Shown: in pieces, positions 8,488 to 58,855 of the stretch
Position numbering within the stretch: position 1 is the first letter of the stretch
How the letters are laid out: every line of letters begins with the position of its first letter
Source: Lachnospiraceae bacterium
GTDB taxonomy: Bacteria; Bacillota; Clostridia; Lachnospirales; Lachnospiraceae
Assembly: GCA_023663945.1 (NCBI GenBank)
Contig: JAMPGL010000019.1
Coordinates: 1 to 61,251 of the forward strand
DNA length: 61,251 nt
Direction: 5' to 3'
Made by a program: the position numbers and the translations under genes
The notes under the pieces: model-generated
Told to the model about the DNA's origin: nothing
Databases searched by the model: none
What the model saw: only the letters and a program-made list of their open reading frames with translations

Positions 8488-9810
8488 ATGGATTTTACTT
8501 TTTATCAATTGTGTTGGTTTTACTTTATTTATTCTTTTATCGGCTGGTGCGGTGAGGTATGTATTGCCGCCGTAAAGAAGAAAACATTTATTAACAGAGG
8601 ATTTGTTAGCGGTCCCTTTTGCCCGATTTATGGCGCGGGGGCCGTAGCATTTGCTGTTTTCCTGCCGGAGCTTACAGGTAATCCGTTCTTTTTATTTTTA
8701 GGAGGAACAATTCTTGCTTCTTTTATTGAATTTGCGACAGGAGCCCTTTTGGAAAAGCTTTTTCACCAAAAATGGTGGGACTACTCGGAGATTCGATTTA
8801 ATTTTGAAGGTTATATCTGTGTAGAATATTCGTTTTTATGGGGTGGCTTTGCGCTGCTTCTTACTTATCTGATTAATCCGGCATTATCCGTATTGATAAA
8901 TATGATACCGCGGCTGGCGGGTGTGATTATTTTGTGGATACTGACGGCATTTTTAACATTAGATACCATGGGAACCTCTCTTGCAATACGGGGGATGCAG
9001 AAAAGGATGGAGCAGCTTGCTCAATTGACCGAAGGGATTGGACAGGTTTCCCGCTTTTTGGAGAACGCCATTACACAGAAAATTGTAAAGCGTATGGAAA
9101 AGGCGTTTCCAGCAATCTCACCGGAAATATTGAAAAAGGAAGCAATCCCAAAAGAAAAGCCGGAAGTTTTTGCGAAGGGATGCGGATTTTATAAGCTTTT
9201 TTCTCTGTTTTTTATTGGAGCATTTTTGGGAGATGTAACTGAGACTATTTTTTGCTTGATTACCACTGGTCAATTGATGAGCCGCAGCAGTGTGGTTTAT
9301 GGCCCGTTCAGTATTGTGTGGGGTTTGGGGTGCGGACTGCTTACGGCGGTTTTGTACCGGATACGGGATAAAAGTGATTCTTATATCTTTGTGGCGGGGA
9401 CACTTCTTGGCGGTGCCTATGAATACATATGCAGCGTATTTACGGAACTGGTATTCGGCACGGTTTTTTGGGACTACAGCGGTTTCCGGTTTAACTTGGG
9501 AGGCAGAATTAATCTCCTTTATTGCTTTTTTTGGGGCATTGCGGCTGTGGTTTGGATGAAACTTTTGTATCCCGGGCTTTCTTCCCGGATAGAAAAACTG
9601 CCTCAAAAAACGGGAAAGATACTCTGCAATTTTCTTATGGTGTTTATGGCAGTCAATTGCCTAATTTCAGCACTGGCACTGGCTCGGTATGGAGAACGGC
9701 AGGCGGAAGGGTCAAAGCCTGCAGAAAATGTGCTGGAAGAATTTTTGGATGAGCGCTTTACGGATGAGAGGATGGAGCGGATTTATCCTAATGCAAAGGC
9801 TGTGGGTTAA
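8488..9810 (+). CDS. Duplicated CmpB-type (PF06541) membrane protein, putative ABC-transporter type IV
   Basis: 440 residues with many membrane segments. Two homologous halves are visible: each has an F/YSFIGW- or FFIGAFLGD-type first helix, a GPFCPIYG/GPFSIVWG motif, and a WDYS-x3-FN motif (FHQKWWDYSEIRFN, FWDYSGFRFN). This is the PF06541 pattern repeated twice with a cytoplasmic linker (~residues 165-235). No ATPase gene is adjacent, so transport is unproven. It ends the XRE operon. Confidence 0.8.
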   Translation: MDFTFYQLCWFYFIYSFIGWCGEVCIAAVKKKTFINRGFVSGPFCPIYGAGAVAFAVFLPELTGNPFFLFLGGTILASFIEFATGALLEKLFHQKWWDYSEIRFNFEGYICVEYSFLWGGFALLLTYLINPALSVLINMIPRLAGVIILWILTAFLTLDTMGTSLAIRGMQKRMEQLAQLTEGIGQVSRFLENAITQKIVKRMEKAFPAISPEILKKEAIPKEKPEVFAKGCGFYKLFSLFFIGAFLGDVTETIFCLITTGQLMSRSSVVYGPFSIVWGLGCGLLTAVLYRIRDKSDSYIFVAGTLLGGAYEYICSVFTELVFGTVFWDYSGFRFNLGGRINLLYCFFWGIAAVVWMKLLYPGLSSRIEKLPQKTGKILCNFLMVFMAVNCLISALALARYGERQAEGSKPAENVLEEFLDERFTDERMERIYPNAKAVG

Positions 9811-9917
9811 ATCTGCGCTTCCCCTGCGGAGATTATCTGGTGGACAAATTTTTTAATACTGTCTGCGTAACAGTTCAGCCTTGCAGTCCCGGATGCACAT
9901 AATTTTACAAATAGATA

Positions 9918-9985
9918 TTGACAAGTAATATTATATGACGTATAGTATGTTTAACACAAATAATACTATACGTCATATAATATTA
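9918..9985 (+). promoter_or_regulatory. PadR promoter with 23 bp perfect inverted repeat
   Basis: TTGACA (9918-9923), 17 bases, TATAGT (9941-9946). A perfect 23-base inverted repeat has its arms at 9926-9948 and 9963-9985, with a 14-base spacer. The left arm covers the space between -35 and -10 and the right arm the transcription start. The core ATGACGTATAGTAT is PadR-operator-like, so this is probably the autoregulatory site. Confidence 0.85.
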
Positions 9986-10020
9986 TAAATAGAAACAGTA
10001 TTGCAGAAAGGAGAAGCGTA

Positions 10021-10344
10021 ATGGTTTTTAATACAGGAGCGGCGCTTTTGGATGCGATTGTACTGGCTGTAGTATCCAGAGAGCAGGAAGGCGCATATGG
10101 ATATAAGATTACGCAGGATGTACGGCAGGTGATTGAACTTTCCGAATCCACATTGTATCCGGTGCTGCGGAGGCTTCAAAAGGATGAATGCCTTGAGGTG
10201 TACGACAGAGAGTGTGCTGGAAGAAACAGGCGGTATTACAAGGCAACGGAAAAGGGAAGGCTTCAGCTTAATCTTTACGAAAGTGAATGGAGAAAATATT
10301 CTGCAAAAATCAATGGAATATTCGAGGGAGGAATGAGCAAATGA
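10021..10344 (+). CDS. PadR-family transcriptional regulator
   Basis: 107 residues of PadR winged-helix type: EGAYGYKITQDV, the SESTLYPVLRRLQKDE recognition region and the RNRRYYKATEKGR wing. The C-terminal dimer helix is short. GAAAGGAGAAGC is upstream of the ATG. It overlaps the DUF1700 gene by ATGA. PadR proteins of this type repress their own operon, commonly of envelope-stress-like genes; the perfect palindrome upstream supports this. Confidence 0.92.
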   Translation: MVFNTGAALLDAIVLAVVSREQEGAYGYKITQDVRQVIELSESTLYPVLRRLQKDECLEVYDRECAGRNRRYYKATEKGRLQLNLYESEWRKYSAKINGIFEGGMSK

Positions 10345-49189: not shown

Positions 49190-49218
49190 TTGAAGAGGAT
49201 ATAAGTGGGTGATATAAT
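49190..49218 (+). promoter_or_regulatory. Promoter of the radical SAM-ParB-SNF2 operon
   Basis: TTGAAG (49190-49195), 17 bases, TATAAT (49213-49218), immediately after the terminator. No second promoter is evident downstream through 55223. Confidence 0.65.
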
Positions 49219-49257
49219 GTTATAAATATATAAGTCAGCCTTGGGAGAAGACTAAGA

Positions 49258-49485
49258 ATGTCAGCAAGTTACAAAAAACTATGGAAGATACTAATTGATA
49301 AAGAATTGAAGAAGAAGGATTTAGAAAAAATGGTGGGAGTTAGCCATTATACAATAAATAAATTGAATAAAGGTGAAAATATAACAACCGATGTATTGGA
49401 AAAAGTATGTAGAGCATTAGATTGTACGGCTAGTGATATTATGGAATTTGTTTCGGATGATAAAAATAAAAATTGTGGAGAATGA
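49258..49485 (+). CDS. XRE-family regulator, first gene of the candidate system
   Basis: 75 residues: a short Cro/C1 HTH (MSASYKKLWKILIDKELKKK, then DLEKMVGVSHYTINKLNKGE and the VLEKVCRALDC helix). The following radical SAM start lies one base after its stop, so the two are coupled. It probably controls the whole operon. Base composition is markedly AT-rich like the genes that follow. Confidence 0.87.
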   Translation: MSASYKKLWKILIDKELKKKDLEKMVGVSHYTINKLNKGENITTDVLEKVCRALDCTASDIMEFVSDDKNKNCGE

Positions 49486-49486
49486 A

Positions 49487-50674
49487 ATGAAGATAGGTAT
49501 TATTGATGCTGATCTTTTAGGACGTGATAAACATCATTTTCCTAATTTGGCTTGTGAAAAAATATCAGGATATTGGAAAGCACGAGGTGCTGAAGTAAAA
49601 CTTTTGGTGGATTATGCAGGATTCGAGGAGTATGACCATGTGTATGTTTCTAAAGTTTTTACGGATACCTTGGTTCCGATAGAATTGGTAGAGTCTGAAA
49701 AGGTACATATTGGCGGAACAGGATTTTATTTTGATAAAGCGCCTGATTTACCAGATGAAATAGAGCATCATATGCCTGATTATAGATTGTATGATGATTG
49801 GATTGAAATGGATGTAAAAAGAGCAGAAGGACTGGCAAAAAAGCAGAATAAAGAATTTAAGCGTGACAATTACATTAAGAGATATAGAGAATATACAGAT
49901 TACGCAATTGGATTTATGACAAGAGGCTGCTTTAGAAAGTGTCCATTTTGTGTTAATCAAAAGTTTGACCATGTTTTTGAGCACAGTCCATTAGAAGAGT
50001 TTTATTATGAAGATTGTAAAAGGATTTGTTTGCTTGATGATAACTTTTTAGGATGTCCTAATTGGAGAGAACTATTAGAGCAATTAATGCAATTAAAAAA
50101 ACCATTTAAGTTTAAGCAAGGATTAGATGAAAGATTGTTAACCGAGGAGCAATGTAAAATATTATTTTCTGCAAATTATGATGGGGATTATACGTTTGCA
50201 TTTGATAAGATTTCGGATTACGAATTAGTACATTCAAAATTGAAAATGATTCGTAAGTATACAAAAACTACAAGCATAAAGTTCTATGTCTTGGTGGGAT
50301 ATGAAAGTACCGATAATGTTGATATAGAAAATGCATTTAAACGAATAGAGTTGCTAATAAGGTTTAAATGTTTACCTTATATTATGAGGTATCAAGACAA
50401 AGATTATTCTCCATGGAAAGAGTCTAAATATCGGAATTTGTATGTGACTATGGCTAGATGGGGAAATCAGCCTAGTATCTTTAAAAAGATGAGCTTTAGA
50501 CAGTTTTGTGAGGCAAATCAGGCATTACATAAGACGGAAGGAACTATGTGTTCGTCAATGAAAGCAATGACAGAATTTGAAATTGAATTTCCAGAAATAG
50601 CAAAAAAATATTTTGATTTAAGATATGAAGAGCATTATTTATCAAATAAGGGGGAAGACATATGGATTATATAA
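49487..50674 (+). CDS. Radical SAM protein with N-terminal cobalamin-binding-like domain
   Basis: 395 residues from ATG 49487. The N-terminal ~110 residues (KIGIIDADLLGRDKHHFPNL, ISGYWKARGAEVKLLVDYAG, then a DHVYVSKVF strand) look like a Rossmann/B12-binding-type domain, though the DxHxxG cobalamin motif is absent. CX3CX2C is at C148, C152 and C155 (GCFRKCPFC). The rest follows the SAM barrel. A substrate cannot be predicted; in the context of ParB-like and nuclease proteins, a nucleic acid or nucleotide is likely. It overlaps the next gene by 13 bases. Confidence 0.85.
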   Translation: MKIGIIDADLLGRDKHHFPNLACEKISGYWKARGAEVKLLVDYAGFEEYDHVYVSKVFTDTLVPIELVESEKVHIGGTGFYFDKAPDLPDEIEHHMPDYRLYDDWIEMDVKRAEGLAKKQNKEFKRDNYIKRYREYTDYAIGFMTRGCFRKCPFCVNQKFDHVFEHSPLEEFYYEDCKRICLLDDNFLGCPNWRELLEQLMQLKKPFKFKQGLDERLLTEEQCKILFSANYDGDYTFAFDKISDYELVHSKLKMIRKYTKTTSIKFYVLVGYESTDNVDIENAFKRIELLIRFKCLPYIMRYQDKDYSPWKESKYRNLYVTMARWGNQPSIFKKMSFRQFCEANQALHKTEGTMCSSMKAMTEFEIEFPEIAKKYFDLRYEEHYLSNKGEDIWII

Positions 50675-51663
50675 AGATACCGATTAATAATATAGAATTA
50701 GACTTGGAAAATCCAAGAATTAAGCAGTGGCTTGAAATGTATGGTGATGAAATAACAAGTGAAGGTATTGCTTTAGCATTAACCGCATCTGGAGGAAATG
50801 CTAATACATCAACATACACATCGTTAAAGGAGTCAATTAGAGTAAATAATGGGATTATTAATCCTATTATTGTGAATAGATATAAAAGCGGAAAACTTGT
50901 TGTAATAGAAGGAAATACAAGACTGCAAATTTATAAAGAGTTTGCAGTTGCTGACCCAGAAGGTCCATGGAACGAAATTATAGCTATGGTCTATGATGAT
51001 TTAGAAAGTAGAGCAATTCATGCAATTCGCTTACAGACACATTTAGTTGGTCCGAGAGATTGGGATCCTTTTTCAAAAGCTAAATATTTGAATCAACTGT
51101 GTAATGTCGACAAGTTGCCAATGTCAATGATTGTTTCTTTTTGTGGTGGGAAAAGTGTAGAGATAAGAAAGTTGATCGATGCATATACCGATATGATGAT
51201 GTATTACTTTCCGATTGTTAAAGAAGCAGAAATGGACCCAGACCCAAGAGAATTTTCCAAATTTGCCGAATTGCAAAATGCAGGAATTAAGCAAGCTTTA
51301 GCGGTTCATAAGTTTAGCAAAGATGATTTTGCAAAGTGGGTAGTGAATGGAAATATTGATACTGCGCAGAACGTTAGGCGATTACCTGCAATTTTGTCTA
51401 ACACATTGGCTAGAGAAGCTTTTCTAAAGTCAACTATATCTGAAGCAATTAAATATTTGAATGCTGACGAAAAAGGAGCAAAAGGACTTTTGGATGCTTC
51501 TATGAATGATCTGATAATGGAATTAATTAAGAGGTGCAGGAATGTGGAATATAAGCATATTAAGGCATTAAGAAATGATCCTCGATATGAAGAACAAAAA
51601 AACAACATAACAGAATTGTTGCATGAATTGCAGGAGATATCTGCAGATATAGAAAGTGAGTAA
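50662..51663 (+). CDS. ParB/sulfiredoxin-like nuclease-type protein 1
   Basis: 333 residues. ParB N-terminal fold elements: an LENPR motif (15-19), INPIIVNRYKSGKLVVIEGN and TRLQIYK (80-92), then HLVGPRDWDPFSKAKYL (127-143). The C-terminal half is helical. EGN-[ST]-RL and the [GR]DWDPF motif are shared with the ParB-like protein at 53551, so they are paralogues. ParB-fold proteins bind CTP or cut DNA; in DndB/DpdB-like settings they recognise DNA for modification. Confidence 0.82.
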   Translation: MDYIKIPINNIELDLENPRIKQWLEMYGDEITSEGIALALTASGGNANTSTYTSLKESIRVNNGIINPIIVNRYKSGKLVVIEGNTRLQIYKEFAVADPEGPWNEIIAMVYDDLESRAIHAIRLQTHLVGPRDWDPFSKAKYLNQLCNVDKLPMSMIVSFCGGKSVEIRKLIDAYTDMMMYYFPIVKEAEMDPDPREFSKFAELQNAGIKQALAVHKFSKDDFAKWVVNGNIDTAQNVRRLPAILSNTLAREAFLKSTISEAIKYLNADEKGAKGLLDASMNDLIMELIKRCRNVEYKHIKALRNDPRYEEQKNNITELLHELQEISADIESE

Positions 51664-51665
51664 GA

Positions 51666-52073
51666 ATGGAGTCGCAAATACATATTAACTTAGTTAATAT
51701 TGCACTTGAATATATTAAAAGTATTGTTCCGGAAGATGAACGTTCTTTGATTTATATAGATACCGCGGGAAATAATAATTCTACGAGAGTTATTGGCAAT
51801 TATATACCAGATGTATATTATAACTATGGTGGCAAGCTTATTATTGGAGAGGCTAAAACGCTCAATGATTTTGAAAAACTACACAGTAAGGAACAATTTG
51901 TAGCATATATGAATGAGTTTTTAGTGTTTCATGGTGAATGTATATTAGTTGTTAGTGTTCCGTGGCAACTGATAAAAACTGCAAAAAATTATTTTACGAG
52001 ATTGCGTAGAGAAATGGATGTCAATGTAAAAGTTATTATATTAAATGAAATAAGTAGGTGCTTTTTGGCATGA
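51666..52073 (+). CDS. Small PD-(D/E)XK nuclease
   Basis: 135 residues. A compact restriction-endonuclease core: PD (48-49) followed by E62-A63-K64 in YIPDVYYNYGGKLIIGEAKT, with the downstream SKEQFVAYM helix (Q77). Conserved PD-x12-ExK spacing supports catalysis. No DNA-binding domain of its own, so it must rely on partners. Two bases after ParB-like 1 and overlapping the SNF2 gene by 4. Confidence 0.82.
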   Translation: MESQIHINLVNIALEYIKSIVPEDERSLIYIDTAGNNNSTRVIGNYIPDVYYNYGGKLIIGEAKTLNDFEKLHSKEQFVAYMNEFLVFHGECILVVSVPWQLIKTAKNYFTRLRREMDVNVKVIILNEISRCFLA

Positions 52074-53548
52074 GCAGAATAATATCAACCTATAATGTAA
52101 ACTATTCGGCTAAAAATTCAGCTTTTCCATACCAAGCAGAAGCGTTTTTGACGATAAAGGACATGGATTATTGTGCAATTTTCCATGAACAAGGGTTAGG
52201 AAAAACCAAAATAGCAATTGATCTATTGCTATATTGGCTAAGCGCTAGAAATATAGATACAGTAATGATTGTGACAAAAAAGCAATTGGTAAAGAATTGG
52301 ACAGATGAATTTTTATTTCATTCATATATTAAACCTAAAGTGCTAAGTAGTAATAAAAGGGATAATTTTTATGTGTTGAATAGTCCGACAAAAGTAATTG
52401 TTACTAATTTTGAAACATTATCAACAGATAAAGATAGAATTGAACTTTTTTTGAAAGCACGAAATGTGGGAATTATTATTGACGAATCAACAAAGCTAAA
52501 GAACCCGGAAGCTAATCTTACGCAAGTTTTTTTTGAATTATCTAATTTGTTTAAGGTCAAGGCAATTATGACAGGAACACCAGTTGCTAATAGACCGTAT
52601 GATATGTGGGCACAAATATATTTTTTGGATAAGGGTAAGAGTTTAGGAAATGATTTCAATGAATTTAAAAGAAATACAGATTTAAGTAATGATTTATCGG
52701 CGAATAAAGAAAAGAGGATGGAGTTTGAAGATGTTGTATCGGGTATATATAAAAGAATTTCGCATTTTTCTATAAGAGAAACAAAGAAAACATGCGGAAT
52801 AGAGTTGCCACAAAAAGAGTATAAGACAATTTATATTAAATATAAGGATTTTCAGTATAAGATGTATAAAGAGGTGATTGATGAACTAAGCTTAGAGATA
52901 AAAAAGGATGGTTCAACAGAAATTGATGATGAAAGCGTTTCATTGAAGAGATTACTTAGATTAATGCAAATAACTTCAAATCCGAGATTGTTAAATGAAG
53001 ACTATGAGGAGATATCTGGAAAAGAAGAAAAATTAGCTTTGCTAATTGAAAGCATTGTTAGTAAAGGTGATAAGTGTATTGTATGGAGTAATTTTATAGA
53101 AAATATTGATTATTTTACTGACAAGTTTAAGAGTTATAATCCAAGAAAAATACATGGTTCTATGTCGATTGAAGAAAGAAATAAATCTGTAGATATATTC
53201 AAGAAAGATGAAGAGTGTAAAGTGTTGTTTGCCACTCCACAAGCTGCAAAGGAAGGGCTGACATTAACTATTGCAAATCATGTCATTTTTTATGACAGAG
53301 GATTTAATTTGGACGATTATCTTCAGGCACAAGACAGAATACATCGTATTTCTCAGAAAAAGAAGTGTTATGTATACAATTTACTAATTGAAAATAGTGT
53401 AGATGTTTGGATTGATAAATTATTAAATGCAAAACAATATGCTGCTTTTTTAGCACAAGGAGATATACAACTGCCAGAATATGTAGAAAGAGCTGATTAT
53501 AGTTATGGAGAAATAATAAGAGAGATACTAAAGGAACGGGAGGATTAA
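52070..53548 (+). CDS. SNF2-family DNA helicase/translocase
   Basis: 492 residues from ATG 52070. Motif I EQGLGKT (40-46), motif II DEST (138-141, in place of DEAH), motif III TGTP (168-171), then the second RecA-like domain with KVLFATPQAAKEGLTLTIAN and the arginine-finger motif VI AQDRIHRI (~419-426). Compact, no extra domains. SNF2 proteins occur in many DNA-modification defence systems, where they translocate on DNA. Overlaps the nuclease gene by ATGA. Confidence 0.88.
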   Translation: MSRIISTYNVNYSAKNSAFPYQAEAFLTIKDMDYCAIFHEQGLGKTKIAIDLLLYWLSARNIDTVMIVTKKQLVKNWTDEFLFHSYIKPKVLSSNKRDNFYVLNSPTKVIVTNFETLSTDKDRIELFLKARNVGIIIDESTKLKNPEANLTQVFFELSNLFKVKAIMTGTPVANRPYDMWAQIYFLDKGKSLGNDFNEFKRNTDLSNDLSANKEKRMEFEDVVSGIYKRISHFSIRETKKTCGIELPQKEYKTIYIKYKDFQYKMYKEVIDELSLEIKKDGSTEIDDESVSLKRLLRLMQITSNPRLLNEDYEEISGKEEKLALLIESIVSKGDKCIVWSNFIENIDYFTDKFKSYNPRKIHGSMSIEERNKSVDIFKKDEECKVLFATPQAAKEGLTLTIANHVIFYDRGFNLDDYLQAQDRIHRISQKKKCYVYNLLIENSVDVWIDKLLNAKQYAAFLAQGDIQLPEYVERADYSYGEIIREILKERED

Positions 53549-53550
53549 TT

Positions 53551-54534
53551 ATGAATACAGAAAATTTAACAATTGGTAAAAGGGATTATAAAGTTCAAAT
53601 TGTAGAATTAAATCAAGCAGATTTAAAGTTTTATCCTGAGAATCCTAGAGTTTATAATGTACTCAATATAAATGGGGAAGAACCTAGTCAGGATGATATC
53701 GAAGACTACATGTGTGCTATGGAACATGTTAAGCAACTTAGGGTTTCTATAGAAAGTAATGGTGGTCTGATAGATCCTCTTATTGTTAGGGATGGTGATT
53801 TTACGGTACTTGAAGGTAATAGTCGTCTAGCAGCATATCGTCTGTTATGTAGGACAGATGCTGTAACATGGGGAAAAGTTAAGTGTAAGTTACTGCCCGG
53901 GGAAATAGACGATTCGGCTATTTTTGCATTATTGGGTCAATATCATATTATTGGTAGAAAAGATTGGGATCCATTTGAACAGGCTAGTTATTTATATAGA
54001 CGTCATGAACAAACCAAATTACCAATAGCTTATATGGCACAAGAACTTGGAATTACCAAGGGAAAAGCAGAAAAAATGATCAGTGTAATCAAGTTTATGA
54101 TTGAAAATAATGATTTAACTAAAAAACACTGGAGTTACTATGAAGAATATTTGAAAAACGCTGGGATTAAAAAGTTTCGTGAAACAATGCCGAATTTGGA
54201 CGAAATAGTTGTAGAAGCAGTAAAAACAGAACAGATAAATGAGGCTGCTGATATGAGGAAATTAGGCGATATTGCGAAAGTTGGAGATAAGCAGTCGAAG
54301 AAGGTTATGCAGAAAATTTCGACTGGAGAAATAGATATCTATGAAGGGTATTCAGAAGTTGAGAATGCGGGAAAGTTTGATGATGTTGTCAAAAAGTTAA
54401 AAATGTTTCGACAGTACATAAATGATGATTCTATACCAAAGCAAATGAAAGTGTCTGAAGATTGTTATAAGCAAGCTCAATATGAAATTAAGAAAATATT
54501 AGCCAGACTAGAGCAATTGAAAGATAAAAAGTAG
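53551..54534 (+). CDS. ParB/sulfiredoxin-like nuclease-type protein 2
   Basis: 327 residues. The same layout as ParB-like 1: PENPR (29-33), IDPLIVRDGDFTVLEGNSRL (74-93) and IIGRKDWDPFEQASYL (133-148), then an HTH-like IAYMAQELGITKGKAEKMIS. The C-terminal half is charged and helical. Two bases after the SNF2 gene. With paralogue 1 it could form a heterodimer reading a DNA site. Confidence 0.82.
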   Translation: MNTENLTIGKRDYKVQIVELNQADLKFYPENPRVYNVLNINGEEPSQDDIEDYMCAMEHVKQLRVSIESNGGLIDPLIVRDGDFTVLEGNSRLAAYRLLCRTDAVTWGKVKCKLLPGEIDDSAIFALLGQYHIIGRKDWDPFEQASYLYRRHEQTKLPIAYMAQELGITKGKAEKMISVIKFMIENNDLTKKHWSYYEEYLKNAGIKKFRETMPNLDEIVVEAVKTEQINEAADMRKLGDIAKVGDKQSKKVMQKISTGEIDIYEGYSEVENAGKFDDVVKKLKMFRQYINDDSIPKQMKVSEDCYKQAQYEIKKILARLEQLKDKK

Positions 54535-54548
54535 AAAGGACGAATTGA

Positions 54549-55223
54549 ATGGATGATATAATTGTAGAATTTTATTCTGGTAAGTACGAGGAAAAGATTA
54601 ACAAAAAATCTTTATATTATTCATATGATTTTCCAAGACAAGAAGTAGTAGGGTATGTAGAAAAAATCATTTCAGAACCAATTGATAGATACATTGCGTA
54701 TATTAAGGGGCTAAAAAAAATAGAACAAATAACGGCTAAGGATGTGTTTCAATTTAGTGACATGAAACATGCGACTGTTGTGATTTGTGAAAAAGTGAAA
54801 GCGCATAATAATTTGGGAATGAAATATATTGATATTGGCAAGATTTTGTTAGATGATGGCAAAGTGAGAAAAGATGGTGCATACACAAAGTATGGTGAAA
54901 ATCATGTTAAAACTGCTGAAGCAATGGGATTGTTTTTTGAATTAAGTCGAACTTATTTTTTAAGCTGTTTGGGGTATATTTATTGTGATTTGCCGAATGA
55001 AGATAGAGATAAGTTGCTAACGAGACTGTTGTTGAGGAATAGATTGATAATAAGATTAGTGCAGGCATCAGAAAATGGAAATATAAATGCGAGAGAGTTT
55101 TTTTATATGTTATCTGATTCGACTTATTTACGTAGAAGGAGTAATGTAAAAGCAGTGTTAAACATATTGAAATCATCGGAAGAATATAATTTTAAAGATT
55201 TTGTAAATAAAATTATTTTATAG
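54549..55223 (+). CDS. Uncharacterised last protein of the radical SAM-ParB-SNF2 operon
   Basis: 224 residues, mostly helical and basic at the C-terminus (LLRNRLIIRLVQ, TYLRRRSNVKAVLN). No family recognised and no membrane segment. GAAAGGA and 14 bases separate it from ParB-like 2, so it is part of the operon. A winged-helix-like element (VKAHNNLGMKYIDIGKILLD) may be present. It could be a DNA-specificity or effector subunit. Confidence 0.7.
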   Translation: MDDIIVEFYSGKYEEKINKKSLYYSYDFPRQEVVGYVEKIISEPIDRYIAYIKGLKKIEQITAKDVFQFSDMKHATVVICEKVKAHNNLGMKYIDIGKILLDDGKVRKDGAYTKYGENHVKTAEAMGLFFELSRTYFLSCLGYIYCDLPNEDRDKLLTRLLLRNRLIIRLVQASENGNINAREFFYMLSDSTYLRRRSNVKAVLNILKSSEEYNFKDFVNKIIL

Positions 55224-55842: not shown

Positions 55843-56721
55843 ATGGCGATAATACCCAATAATTTTGTTAACGCTGTTGTTGCAATTGGTGTACAACAGC
55901 AGTGCAACGGACATAGAGAGAAATTATGGATTGGCACAGGTTTTTTAGTGAGTATGCAAGAACCTAATAATATGCAAGTTTCAACAATTTATTTGATTAC
56001 AAATAAACATGTTCTGAATGGGAAAAATACAGTTTACGTTCGGTTTAACAGTGTAGTGGGAGCTTTTGCTAAAGATTATGAGATTCAGCTAATAGATGGT
56101 ATGGGAAGAAAATCATATACAGAGCACCCGGATGCAGAGGTTGATATTATTGCAATACAATTAAATCCACAGTGTTTGATTAATGATAGCTCTATTTGGG
56201 GTGCAATAAATATTGATACGGAAGCACTGGATGTACATAATATGAAAATTCATGGAATAGATGAAGGCTGGCTGGTCTACGCACTTGGTTTTCCGATGAG
56301 TCTGGTAAGCGAAATTAAGACTCCCATATGCAGAATGGGCTGCATCTCTAGATTGATGGATGTATTTTTGCAACCGGATAGAGCAAAATATTTTTTAGTT
56401 GATGCGCAGGCATTTCCGGGCAATTCAGGTGGACCTATAATCAGTAAACCAGAAAGTGCATATTCAACAGTAGGGACAAATTATATACCTGCAAGACTTT
56501 TAGGTGTGTTAAGTGCTTATATTCCTTATAGAGATGCATTGATTAGTCAGCAGACACAGGAGATTAAAATGGTGCAAACTGAAAATAGTGGGTTAACCAT
56601 AGTTTATCCCGTAGATAGAATAAAAGAGGTTGTACTTTTAGACTGGGATAGACATAGAGAAGACACAATAAATAACTTTGGTACATATATTGGTATAAAT
56701 ACTGAAAATGGACAAGGGTAA
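55843..56721 (+). CDS. Trypsin-like serine protease (S1 fold, cytoplasmic)
   Basis: 292 residues, no signal peptide. Catalytic triad candidates are H in LITNKHVL (~54), D in EVDIIAIQ (~103) and S in FPGNSGGPII (~199). The FLVDAQAFPGNSGG stretch is the classical trypsin-fold serine loop. A stand-alone intracellular trypsin-like protease in an accessory island suggests a defence or regulatory role, as in trypsin-containing defence genes; that is inference. GGAGGG before the ATG. Confidence 0.82.
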   Translation: MAIIPNNFVNAVVAIGVQQQCNGHREKLWIGTGFLVSMQEPNNMQVSTIYLITNKHVLNGKNTVYVRFNSVVGAFAKDYEIQLIDGMGRKSYTEHPDAEVDIIAIQLNPQCLINDSSIWGAINIDTEALDVHNMKIHGIDEGWLVYALGFPMSLVSEIKTPICRMGCISRLMDVFLQPDRAKYFLVDAQAFPGNSGGPIISKPESAYSTVGTNYIPARLLGVLSAYIPYRDALISQQTQEIKMVQTENSGLTIVYPVDRIKEVVLLDWDRHREDTINNFGTYIGINTENGQG

Positions 56722-56826
56722 ATAATAAATAGATGACGGCAAGTTAGGTAGTTGAAAATGGCTTAAACAAAAAGTGAGGAATATATGAACTCGAAAAATG
56801 GAAATTGTATGCAGAAGGAGATTAAC

Positions 56827-57099
56827 ATGAATAAAACAGATGCAAAAACAGCGATGGAGGAACTATCAATGATATTGATTTACTTATCTCATTTTACAGA
56901 AAGAGACGGATTGGCAGATCCTAATAATAAATATGCGTGGAAAGGCTATGATTTTGATATTTTGAACCAACTTGACGAGAAAGATTATATAAGACAGGGT
57001 TCACATCGTTCAAAATCCATGTACATAACGAAAGACGGCGAGGCAAAGGCAAAGGAGCTTATGGAGAAATATAGTGTAGAAGATTGGGAAAGAGAATAA
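56827..57099 (+). CDS. DUF6429-family protein
   Basis: 90 residues from ATG 56827 (AAGGAG six bases upstream; an ATG at 56785 is in frame but weaker). The KAWKGYDFDILNQLDEKDYI-like core with SKSMYITKDGEAKAKEL is typical of this short family of unknown function, often seen in mobile regions. Cytoplasmic. Confidence 0.72.
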   Translation: MNKTDAKTAMEELSMILIYLSHFTERDGLADPNNKYAWKGYDFDILNQLDEKDYIRQGSHRSKSMYITKDGEAKAKELMEKYSVEDWERE

Positions 57100-57148
57100 A
57101 TATTGTAAGCAATTATCATATACGACGAAACAAAATAATTATAATTAA

Positions 57149-58855
57149 ATGATGATATTGGAGAAAGAAGACATGATATATTCTGAAAACCAGCTTAAAG
57201 AAAAAATCATTCAAATGATAGAAAATTTTGAAGATGAGGTTGTGGAGTTTAAGGAAGCAAAAACTAACTATTCTTTTAAAGATATCGGGAAATATTTTTC
57301 TGCATTAGGCAATGAGGCGAATATCCGGGATATGAAAGAGGCGTGGCTGATATTTGGTGTTACAAACAAAAAAGAAATTGTTGGAACGGCATACAGAAAA
57401 GACGGAAGTTTGCAAAGGATGAAAAAAGAAATTGTTGTCGGAACGAATGAGCGCCTGACATTTATGGAGATATATGAGATGAAATTAGAAGGAAAGCGAG
57501 TGGTTGCTTTCCAAATTCCGCCTGCGCTTCGTGGTATTCCGACAACATGGAATGGCGCTGCTTACGCAAGGGAGGATGAAAGTACCTGCCCACTGCCAAT
57601 GGATAAAGTAGATTTGATTCGCAGTCAGGTGGGCATTGATTGGTCAAAAGAAATTGTGGAAAATGCAAATATGGAAGATCTGGATGCAGAAGCTGTAAAA
57701 TATGCACGTACATTGTTTGTTAAAAAGCAAAAGGCTTCTAAGAAGTCTACAGAGATGTTGGAAAAGATGTCTGATATAGAGATATTGAATAAGGCAGGCT
57801 TATTAATAAAGGGAAAAGTGACAAATACAGCATTGATTCTTTTGGGAAAAGAAGAGTCTCAATATCTGTTTGATGGATTTATTCCAAGAATAACATGGAC
57901 TTTATATAATGGAGATGGCGTTGTTAAAGCATATGAACATTTTGATATGCCGCTTTTGCTGGCAGTAGACAAAACTTATGCGAAGATTAGGAATGAAAAA
58001 TATCGGTATATTGCGGGACAGCAAACTTTGTTTCCGGATGAGGTAGATCAATATGATCCTGATGTGGTGAAAGAAATTTTGAATAATTGCATTGCACATT
58101 CTAATTACCAACTTAGAGGTAAAATCAATGTGGAAGAATTTGAGGACAGATTGGTATTTATTAATGAAGGCAGCTTCATCCCGGAAACTGTAGAGCGTAC
58201 ACTTGAAGAGGGATATAAGCCGCCGTATTACCGAAATGGCTTCTTATGTCATGCGATGGTCAACCTTTATATGATAGATACAAATGCAATGGGGATTCCT
58301 ATGATGTATCAAATCCAACGGGATAAATGTTTTCCATTGCCAACCTATGACTTGGAAGATATTAATCGTGTAAAGGTTACTTTATATGGAAAAATTCTTG
58401 ACAGAAATTATACGCAGTTGCTTCATAGTAATGGAGATTTGGATTTGCATACGGTGTTTTTATTAGATAAAGTACAGAAAAAAGAGATTATTACCAAAGA
58501 GGATTACAATTCTCTGAAAAAAGTCGGATTAGTAGAGGGAAGATATCCCAACTTGTTTGTGTCATATAAGATTGCCAATATTGTGGGGACATCAGCAGAA
58601 TATGTAAGGAACAAGGGATTAGATAAGGATATATATCAACAGCTTATTATAAATGCTTTAAAAACAATGAAAAGTGCAAAGGTATCTGACATAAAGGCTG
58701 TATTAGATGGTGCATTGCCGACAATCATGGATGAGAAGCAGAAAATCAGAAAAGTCTCTAATATTCTTCAAAATATGAAAAAAGAAGGTATAGTTTATGT
58801 CGAAGGAAGCGGGCATAAGGCAAGGTGGATGCTGGCTAATGGACAAAAGGCTTGA
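57149..58855 (+). CDS. AlbA_2 (Schlafen-type)/ATP-binding domain protein
   Basis: 568 residues. N-terminal AlbA_2 domain: EFKEAKTNYSFKDIGKYFSA, EAWLIFGVTNKKEIVGT and AREDESTCPLPM. A GHKL-like region (~280-410) has a ILNNCIAHSNY (N-box-like) helix and the EDRLVFINEGSF strand. The C-terminus is a winged-helix region with HTH (VSNILQNMKKEGIVY). Such proteins are annotated as RecG-like or RNA-binding regulators and occur in defence islands. ATG 57173 is a possible start. Confidence 0.82.
   Translation: MMILEKEDMIYSENQLKEKIIQMIENFEDEVVEFKEAKTNYSFKDIGKYFSALGNEANIRDMKEAWLIFGVTNKKEIVGTAYRKDGSLQRMKKEIVVGTNERLTFMEIYEMKLEGKRVVAFQIPPALRGIPTTWNGAAYAREDESTCPLPMDKVDLIRSQVGIDWSKEIVENANMEDLDAEAVKYARTLFVKKQKASKKSTEMLEKMSDIEILNKAGLLIKGKVTNTALILLGKEESQYLFDGFIPRITWTLYNGDGVVKAYEHFDMPLLLAVDKTYAKIRNEKYRYIAGQQTLFPDEVDQYDPDVVKEILNNCIAHSNYQLRGKINVEEFEDRLVFINEGSFIPETVERTLEEGYKPPYYRNGFLCHAMVNLYMIDTNAMGIPMMYQIQRDKCFPLPTYDLEDINRVKVTLYGKILDRNYTQLLHSNGDLDLHTVFLLDKVQKKEIITKEDYNSLKKVGLVEGRYPNLFVSYKIANIVGTSAEYVRNKGLDKDIYQQLIINALKTMKSAKVSDIKAVLDGALPTIMDEKQKIRKVSNILQNMKKEGIVYVEGSGHKARWMLANGQKA

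Follow-up and report, generated by a model that had tools for sequence, protein, structure and literature searches.

A conserved ParB-nuclease-SNF2-ParB gene core and its usual radical-SAM partner: a candidate restriction-modification-like system

The described systems that lie closest to the locus treated here are the type II restriction-modification (RM) systems, which are recognized by a methyltransferase together with an endonuclease, and among which dpnM, dpnA and dpnB normally occur together; the Dpd system of 7-deazaguanine DNA modification, with its DNA-inserting transglycosylase DpdA; the Dnd, Ssp and Pbe phosphorothioation systems, Dnd being recognized by the PP-loop sulfurtransferase DndC together with DndD and DndE; and Zorya type I and DISARM. 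Here we describe a gene set found in 61,251 nucleotides of DNA from a Lachnospiraceae bacterium (assembly GCA_023663945.1, contig JAMPGL010000019.1, positions 1 to 61,251; this whole stretch is called the window below), in which seven almost overlapping open reading frames (ORFs) on the + strand, at 49,258-55,223, encode a small regulator, a radical S-adenosylmethionine (radical-SAM) enzyme, a ParB-like protein (ParB1), a small nuclease, an SNF2-type motor, a second ParB-like protein (ParB2), and a last protein that we call Unk7. An earlier note, made from the sequence alone, had proposed these genes as an undescribed system, and the analysis reported here finds a real, conserved gene system whose core is ParB1-nuclease-SNF2-ParB2 and whose usual partner is the radical-SAM enzyme. 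We read it, with a probability of about 0.5, as an unnamed mobile defence system resembling RM, in which a radical-SAM modification arm would be combined with a ParB/SNF2/nuclease arm.

Conservation and spread of the core

The four core genes of the window, all on the + strand, encode ParB1, a ParB/Srx-fold-like protein (50662..51663); a PD-(D/E)XK-type nuclease (51666..52073); an SNF2-type superfamily 2 ATPase or translocase (52070..53548); and ParB2 (53551..54534). A ParB1 profile was scanned against a species-level genome collection, where it found 84 relatives, 80 of which were kept (L018-L097), and against viral contigs, which added six loci (L098-L103), giving 86 loci at which ORFs were called mechanically and labelled by profiles. 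All four core genes are present at 81 of the 86 loci, and at 80 of these 81 (81 of 82 with the window included) they lie on one strand, in the same order and within 4 kb; the exception, L091, is rearranged, with ParB1 at the far end. Because the search used ParB1 only, the shared order of the core is independent evidence. In the 81 ordered loci, window included, the distance from the ParB1 stop to the ParB2 stop stays below 4 kb (median 2,903 bases), and the three intergenic gaps have medians of -1, -4 and -4 bases and do not exceed 60 bases in 80, 80 and 81 loci, respectively; overlaps longer than 60 bases (6, 9 and 3 cases) probably reflect over-long starts, since starts were placed mechanically. 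Four of the five incomplete loci (L030, L073, L086, L092) run into a contig end next to or within the set; the fifth, L074, has a truncated SNF2 ORF. Among the 81 full-core loci the partners are the radical-SAM enzyme at 75, a GHKL ATPase at 47, a DGQHR protein at 23 and Unk7 at 14, all of them within 4 kb of the core except for one DGQHR protein (22 of 23). Both a gene order that is not conserved and a match to a named pathway, the outcomes on which the earlier note had staked its proposal of an undescribed conserved set, were looked for and neither was found. No description of the gene set was found in the literature covered, namely open-licence full text (preprint servers and many subscription papers fall outside this scope), nor is it described in the portions available of PMC10853773, PMC12839542, PMC12704722, PMC4989453, PMC13391042 and PMC10250203.

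The distribution of the set is patchy. ParB1 was found (E<=1e-10) in one of 250 genomes of the window's family, which is the window's own, and one of 395 genomes of the class around L034 carries the system, again L034's own; the core loci nevertheless fall into 16 named phyla, counted over the rows of an SNF2 tree (83 rows, quick method). The window groups in this tree with L018, L019, L020 and L021 (support 99). Along the tree there are 15 changes of architecture and 23 of phylum label, the latter against a minimum of 16 for 17 labels, which is modest by itself, and some phylum labels may be contamination because many rows are metagenome-assembled genomes. A tblastn search of plasmids with ParB1 returned eight records, of which seven were taken in, the eighth being a near copy of another. 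Five rhizobial or Roseomonas plasmids (L011-L015) carry ParB1-nuclease-SNF2-ParB2 with a DGQHR protein, a radical-SAM protein of 543-547 residues and a GHKL ATPase beside it; a Bradyrhizobium plasmid (L016) carries the set in rearranged form, including three ParB1-like genes, and the Persicobacter record (L017) has ParB only. Compared with the alphaproteobacterial proteins, the window's ParB1 is 36-41% identical, its SNF2 47% (to a rhizobial protein), its ParB2 41%, its nuclease 28% over 90 positions and its radical-SAM enzyme just 23% over 106 positions.

This spread on mobile DNA bears on an alternative that we consider unlikely, namely that the genes form a module by which a mobile element serves its own replication, partition or anti-restriction, with the radical-SAM enzyme shielding the element's DNA and the ParB, SNF2 and nuclease proteins processing it. 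It would account for the presence of the core on the rhizobial and Roseomonas plasmids and on six viral contigs, one of which (L101) encodes an SNF2 protein identical to that of genome locus L077, and for the occurrence in phages, among them L002, L003 and L008, of both the SNF2 family (PHROG 62) and the radical-SAM family (PHROG 9298; 53 viral loci). Yet ParB1, nuclease and ParB2 are unmatched at 52 viral radical-SAM loci, some of which are short stretches, ParB1 has no match at E<=1e-3 in 50,697 phage records, genome assemblies supply 80 of the 86 core loci, and two cores lie within an RM operon. The same silence of the phage records led us to reject a phage remnant as the identity of the locus. 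A ParABS partition system was likewise rejected: ParB1 scores 20.4 bits against a cut-off of 26.3, ParB2 gives no match, and the matches listed for the other operon proteins include no ParA.

The radical-SAM enzyme and its links to DNA modification

The proposed modification enzyme (49487..50674, + strand) has an N-terminal Rossmann-like domain, and its assignment is weak by Pfam, where the Radical_SAM match is sub-threshold (E 0.064), but firm by PHROG 9298 (E 9e-54), by an invariant Cys motif and by the predicted fold. The motif CX3CX2C, which reads CFRKCPFC in the window, retains its three Cys in all 77 sequences compared, that of the window among them. A structural model (pLDDT, the predicted local distance difference test, 91.7; 34 sequences) gave four matches in the PDB at E<=0.001, all to MiaB and RimO (6.6e-6 to 2.5e-4), the best being MiaB 7mjz; because the root-mean-square deviation is about 12, the likeness is one of shared domain types and not of the same arrangement, and the sequence profile has no match among PDB sequences at E<=0.01. 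Motif, PHROG match and the MiaB/RimO-type fold of the model together place the enzyme in the radical-SAM superfamily, whose marks are this Cys motif and a partial TIM barrel. The methylthiotransferases MiaB and RimO hold a second Fe-S cluster on three N-terminal Cys. No such second group of Cys is conserved in the 77 sequences, where a level of 93% or more is reached by the three radical-SAM Cys and no others; there is accordingly no sign of MiaB-type sulfur insertion, and by this comparison the enzyme does not belong with the methylthiotransferases.

Three kinds of context tie the enzyme to DNA modification, as the earlier note had supposed: replacement by methyltransferases and DpnII, proximity to methyltransferases on viral contigs, and partners that resemble DndB or DpdB together with a GHKL ATPase. 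The first comes from the six full-core loci of 81 that have no radical-SAM gene (L034, L036, L038, L058, L085 and L097), three of which (L038, L058, L085) are broken off by the end of the contig at ParB2 or immediately after it. In L034 and L036, both from Bacilli, a D12-class adenine methyltransferase lies upstream of the core (E 7e-63 each), an N6/N4-type methyltransferase adjoins ParB1 (E 2e-64 and 3e-66; overlaps, as mechanically called, of 17 and 23 bases), and DpnII follows directly downstream (E 5e-108 with a gap of 13 bases, and 2e-109 with an overlap of 4); L036 has in addition a 183-residue protein with no Pfam match between its two methyltransferases. In the SNF2 tree these two loci belong to a group of 24 rows (support 89) that is nested in one of 31 rows (support 100), and all other rows of the larger group carry the radical-SAM enzyme. 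Among the 395 genomes of L034's class, no DpnII-type locus other than its own was found.

The second context comes from an alignment-based scan, which found the radical-SAM family on 53 viral contigs where a single-protein scan had found nothing; the test set holds 52, the 53-residue match L200 being excluded. A DNA methyltransferase lies within 3 kb of the radical-SAM gene on 35 of the 52 contigs, at a density of 0.208 against 0.009 per kb, both values obtained with models partly seeded from such neighbours. When the models were seeded from non-phage sequences plus a C5 motif, the count was 25 of 52; dereplication at 80% identity reduced the set to 32 contigs, 11 of which have such a neighbour. 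With these models the density was 0.095 per kb against 0.006 per kb farther off in the same stretches. The third context is that of the partner genes: the DGQHR protein matches both Pfam DndB (E 2e-11) and PADLOC DpdB (E 1.5e-17).

These contexts also weigh on an alternative suggested by the fold, which we hold to be very improbable: that the enzyme modifies RNA or protein and belongs to an abortive-infection or toxin-like set acting with no DNA marks. The top structural matches would suit it, being RimO and MiaB, the latter with RNA bound in two of its three entries, as would the AbiH-domain protein found after the core in one relative (L029); the missing second Cys cluster speaks against it, and so does the position of the viral relatives near DNA methyltransferases, a comparison in which RNA-modification genes were not looked for.

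Two arrangements of the set can be distinguished. In variant A, that of the window, the radical-SAM gene lies immediately upstream of ParB1 and Unk7 follows ParB2, while in variant B the radical-SAM gene is accompanied by the GHKL ATPase, often by the DGQHR protein as well, and is placed downstream, upstream or on the opposite strand; it lies on the other strand at 16 of the 75 loci that have it. Correlations between distance matrices are high within the core (0.74-0.84 overall; SNF2 with ParB1 0.83, with ParB2 0.74 and with the nuclease 0.75; ParB1 with ParB2 0.84) and high again between the radical-SAM enzyme and GHKL (0.83) or DGQHR (0.82), none of the values being reached in 2,000 permutations, in which host relatedness was not controlled. 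We read this pattern in the proteins as that of two units that share their inheritance and are at times exchanged. Near variant-B genes there are also PIN-domain proteins, identified as PIN_8 by Pfam in L056 (18335-20254) and by annotation as PIN-like in L011-L013, L089 and L090 having a protein of like size in a corresponding position, and a second GHKL-type ATPase stands beside the PIN protein in L013, L056, L089 and L090; the pair is possibly a separate, linked module.

Core proteins, Unk7 and the proposed function

The seven window proteins were compared with four family libraries (Pfam, PHROGs, PADLOC and NCBIfam), in none of which did any of them match a named system component over its full length. 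ParB1 matches Pfam ParB_N at E 5e-4, which is below the cut-off, and ParB2 has no ParB_N match; the two are paralogues (27% identity over 243 aligned positions, E 3e-21), share PHROG 3694 as nearest family, and have in common, as had been claimed, the motifs EGN[ST]RL and DWDPF. EGNTR is present in 84 of 84 ParB1 sequences and EGN in 81 of 81 ParB2 sequences, where the next residue is S in 76. Among PDB sequences the ParB1 profile finds the nucleoid occlusion protein only (E 0.04-0.05). Residues 16-167 of ParB2 resemble an uncharacterised protein near the record end of Peduovirus P2 and phage Wphi (29.9%, E 2e-7). The nuclease has no family match in any of the four libraries and carries a PD-x12-EAK motif, the catalytic residues of which are kept in 79 (P), 83 (D), 83 (E) and 80 (K) of 84 sequences. 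The SNF2 protein matches SNF2-rel_dom (E 9e-29), Helicase_C (E 7e-21) and PHROG 62, contains the motifs EQGLGKT, DEST and QDRIHR that had been pointed out, and has 128 columns conserved at 93% or more in 83 sequences. Among the variant-B partners, D-QHR is kept in 24 of 24 DGQHR proteins, and 48 columns reach at least 93% in 47 GHKL sequences; all these counts exclude sequences outside set length ranges. From such conservation, the enzymes appear to have been kept active.

Unk7 (54549..55223, + strand; 224 residues) has no match above cut-off in the four libraries. Its model (pLDDT 94, 16 sequences) consists largely of helices; nothing in the PDB matches it at E<=0.001, and the fold likeness that it does show, to the MarR (winged-helix), ROQ and BpuJI recognition domains, is weak. 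The protein is possibly DNA-binding. Its Bacteroidales relatives are fusions of two kinds: L035 (8074-9771) and the second L050 gene have Peptidase_S24, which is LexA-like, and L049 (13862-16201) and L050 have regions 2 and 4 of sigma-70; in L050 (13849-18100) the fusions form two tandem genes, the sigma part of which also matches PADLOC MzaA (E 6e-31). A further protein, in L033 (5864-7012), looks by eye like an S24-fused Unk7. In L029 an AbiH-domain protein (8578-10278) occupies the place of Unk7; its C-terminal part resembles by eye the end of the L035 fusion, with no Pfam match above cut-off. A likeness of the C-terminal part of some Unk7 relatives and of the L029 protein to the ScoMcrA sulfur-binding domain was considered and is not claimed, as Pfam returned nothing above cut-off. 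In L028 the core is followed, after a larger gap, by a Schlafen AlbA_2 protein with the same two domains as the Schlafen protein downstream of the operon in the window.

The fusions are one ground for another alternative, in our view quite improbable, according to which the system answers DNA lesions or stress: the radical-SAM enzyme would repair or process a lesion, the SNF2, nuclease and ParB proteins would act at the damage, and the various Unk7 types would regulate transcription. Spore photoproduct lyase is a known radical-SAM enzyme of DNA repair, and a UmuC-type polymerase and UvrB are encoded near the core of L097. The patchy distribution of the set, the replacement of the radical-SAM enzyme by methyltransferases and DpnII in L034 and L036, the confinement of the S24 and sigma fusions observed to variant-A loci of Bacteroidales, and a best fold match to MiaB/RimO all count against it.

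In the RM-like reading that we favour, the system would consist of two exchangeable modules. The radical-SAM enzyme, joined in variant B by the GHKL ATPase and often by the DndB/DpdB-like protein, would mark host DNA; in the second module ParB1 and ParB2 would pair up to bind or clamp DNA under nucleotide control, the SNF2 motor would translocate along the DNA, and the small nuclease would cut DNA that is free of the mark, with the last gene (Unk7 in the window, the AbiH-domain protein in L029) possibly serving as an accessory regulator or effector. A broader version, which we put forward only tentatively and regard as rather doubtful, is that of a widespread immunity in which the radical-SAM enzyme, in variant B with the GHKL ATPase and the DndB/DpdB-like protein, writes a previously unknown DNA mark, and in which DNA that does not carry it is destroyed by a ParB-ParB-SNF2-nuclease assembly, one that adenine methylation can serve as well.

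Several observations weigh against the favoured reading. The DpnII context represents one lineage, its two loci having ParB1 proteins 90% identical, and the role of the core there is unclear because an endonuclease is already present. At L097 the core stands among housekeeping genes, the stretch contains no radical-SAM gene, and ten scanned neighbours include no methyltransferase. On 21 of the 32 dereplicated viral contigs the models with non-phage seeds find no methyltransferase within 3 kb, and the correlations of the radical-SAM enzyme with SNF2 (0.50) and ParB1 (0.56), which no permutation reached either, are weaker than those within the core. The S24 and sigma-70 fusions of Unk7 suggest, as far as domain content goes, regulation rather than cleavage. 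A setting in defence islands, which the earlier note had wished to see checked, did not clearly emerge, as known defence genes showed no distinct enrichment over a matched control. This test compared 130 neighbour proteins, out of 165 from 20 of the 86 loci, with 130 control proteins, out of 277 encoded in 20-kb regions at other places on these 20 contigs (random draw; proteins of more than 900 residues excluded; PADLOC E<=1e-15), and the PADLOC families with at least one member numbered 96 for the neighbours and 67 for the control, the highest count for any single family among the 25 listed being 2 and 1. Finally, an empty site was sought in congeners, three of which match the MATE gene upstream of the operon at 79%, and no insertion boundary could be demonstrated, because one region alone (L116) extends far past MATE and nothing else in it matches the window.

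If the favoured reading is true, a restriction-like system with a radical-SAM modification arm could reveal a new kind of DNA modification and could point to the function of the uncharacterised phage enzyme family PHROG 9298; the natural swap between the radical-SAM enzyme and the methyltransferases with DpnII would allow the same core to be compared under N6-methyladenine and under another mark.

As regards the operon itself, the ORF coordinates bear out the run of seven + strand genes and its spacings (+1, -13, +2, -4, +2 and +14 bases), and two further claims stand in part. A single promoter is plausible at 49190..49218 (+ strand), a candidate of sigma-70 type with TTGAAG-17-TATAAT (10/12) and a TG before the -10 element, but such sites are no commoner in the region than in shuffled sequence (32 found against 36.0 +/- 5.5 expected), so that the evidence for it is weak. 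The AT-rich composition is real (G+C content 0.30-0.36), but it extends from about 49.1 kb to the window end at 61.2 kb and is therefore a feature of more than the operon. The first gene, an XRE/Cro-type helix-turn-helix regulator of 75 residues (49258..49485, + strand; Pfam HTH_26 E 7e-20), had been counted as part of the set; outside the window its profile matches only L043 at E<=1e-3, and by this comparison it is local and to be dropped from the definition of the system. Downstream of the operon, at 55843-58855, the window encodes a trypsin-like protease, a DUF6429 protein and the Schlafen protein (AlbA_2 with HATPase_c_4). The same genome carries on another contig (C62; L201, 1-14000) a separate phosphorothioate-type Dnd/Pbe locus with genes for a DndD-like protein, DndC (PADLOC E 3e-125), DndB (Pfam, 393 bits), PbeC and PbeA (E 6e-201), and for a protein of 875 residues that combines an RNA polymerase alpha-CTD domain with one of sigma-70 region 4; a likeness between the last and the sigma-70 fusion of L050 was set aside, as it comes down to a generic 28-residue stretch of sigma region 4.

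Comparison with known systems

One close parallel is with type II RM of the DpnII kind, in which modification genes come first and the nuclease last, and in two loci, L034 and L036, the core sits between N6-adenine methyltransferases and DpnII. Only these two loci contain the methyltransferase and endonuclease by which type II RM is recognized; the window has neither a methyltransferase nor DpnII, the radical-SAM enzyme and Unk7 stand in their places, and a motor and two ParB-like proteins are added. Like the set described here, the Dpd system combines an SNF2 helicase with a ParB-fold protein; the window's SNF2 protein resembles DpdE (E 3e-39), and the variant-B DGQHR protein matches DpdB, whereas ParB1 and ParB2 of the window do not. 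It differs in that the listed matches of the window's seven operon proteins, which for SNF2 are the best 25 of 28, include neither DpdA nor DpdC; those of three variant-B proteins do not include DpdA either. The Dnd, Ssp and Pbe systems are linked to the set by the DndB match of the variant-B partner, whereas the listed matches of the seven operon proteins include no DndC/SspD, DndD or DndE. With Zorya type I and DISARM the motor alone is held in common (SNF2 against ZorD, E 3e-49, and against DrmD, E 3e-19), no companion component of either being among the matches listed.

Phages encode the same enzyme family, PHROG 9298, with 54% (L002) and 46% (L003) identity, and in L002 the radical-SAM gene overlaps those of a ParB-methyltransferase fusion and a C5 methyltransferase; what sets these loci apart is that none of the 52 viral loci tested shows a ParB1, nuclease or ParB2 of the core. 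By the tests made, the system is not a member of the Dnd, Dpd, Zorya, DISARM or classical RM systems, and it probably works like a modification-restriction system.

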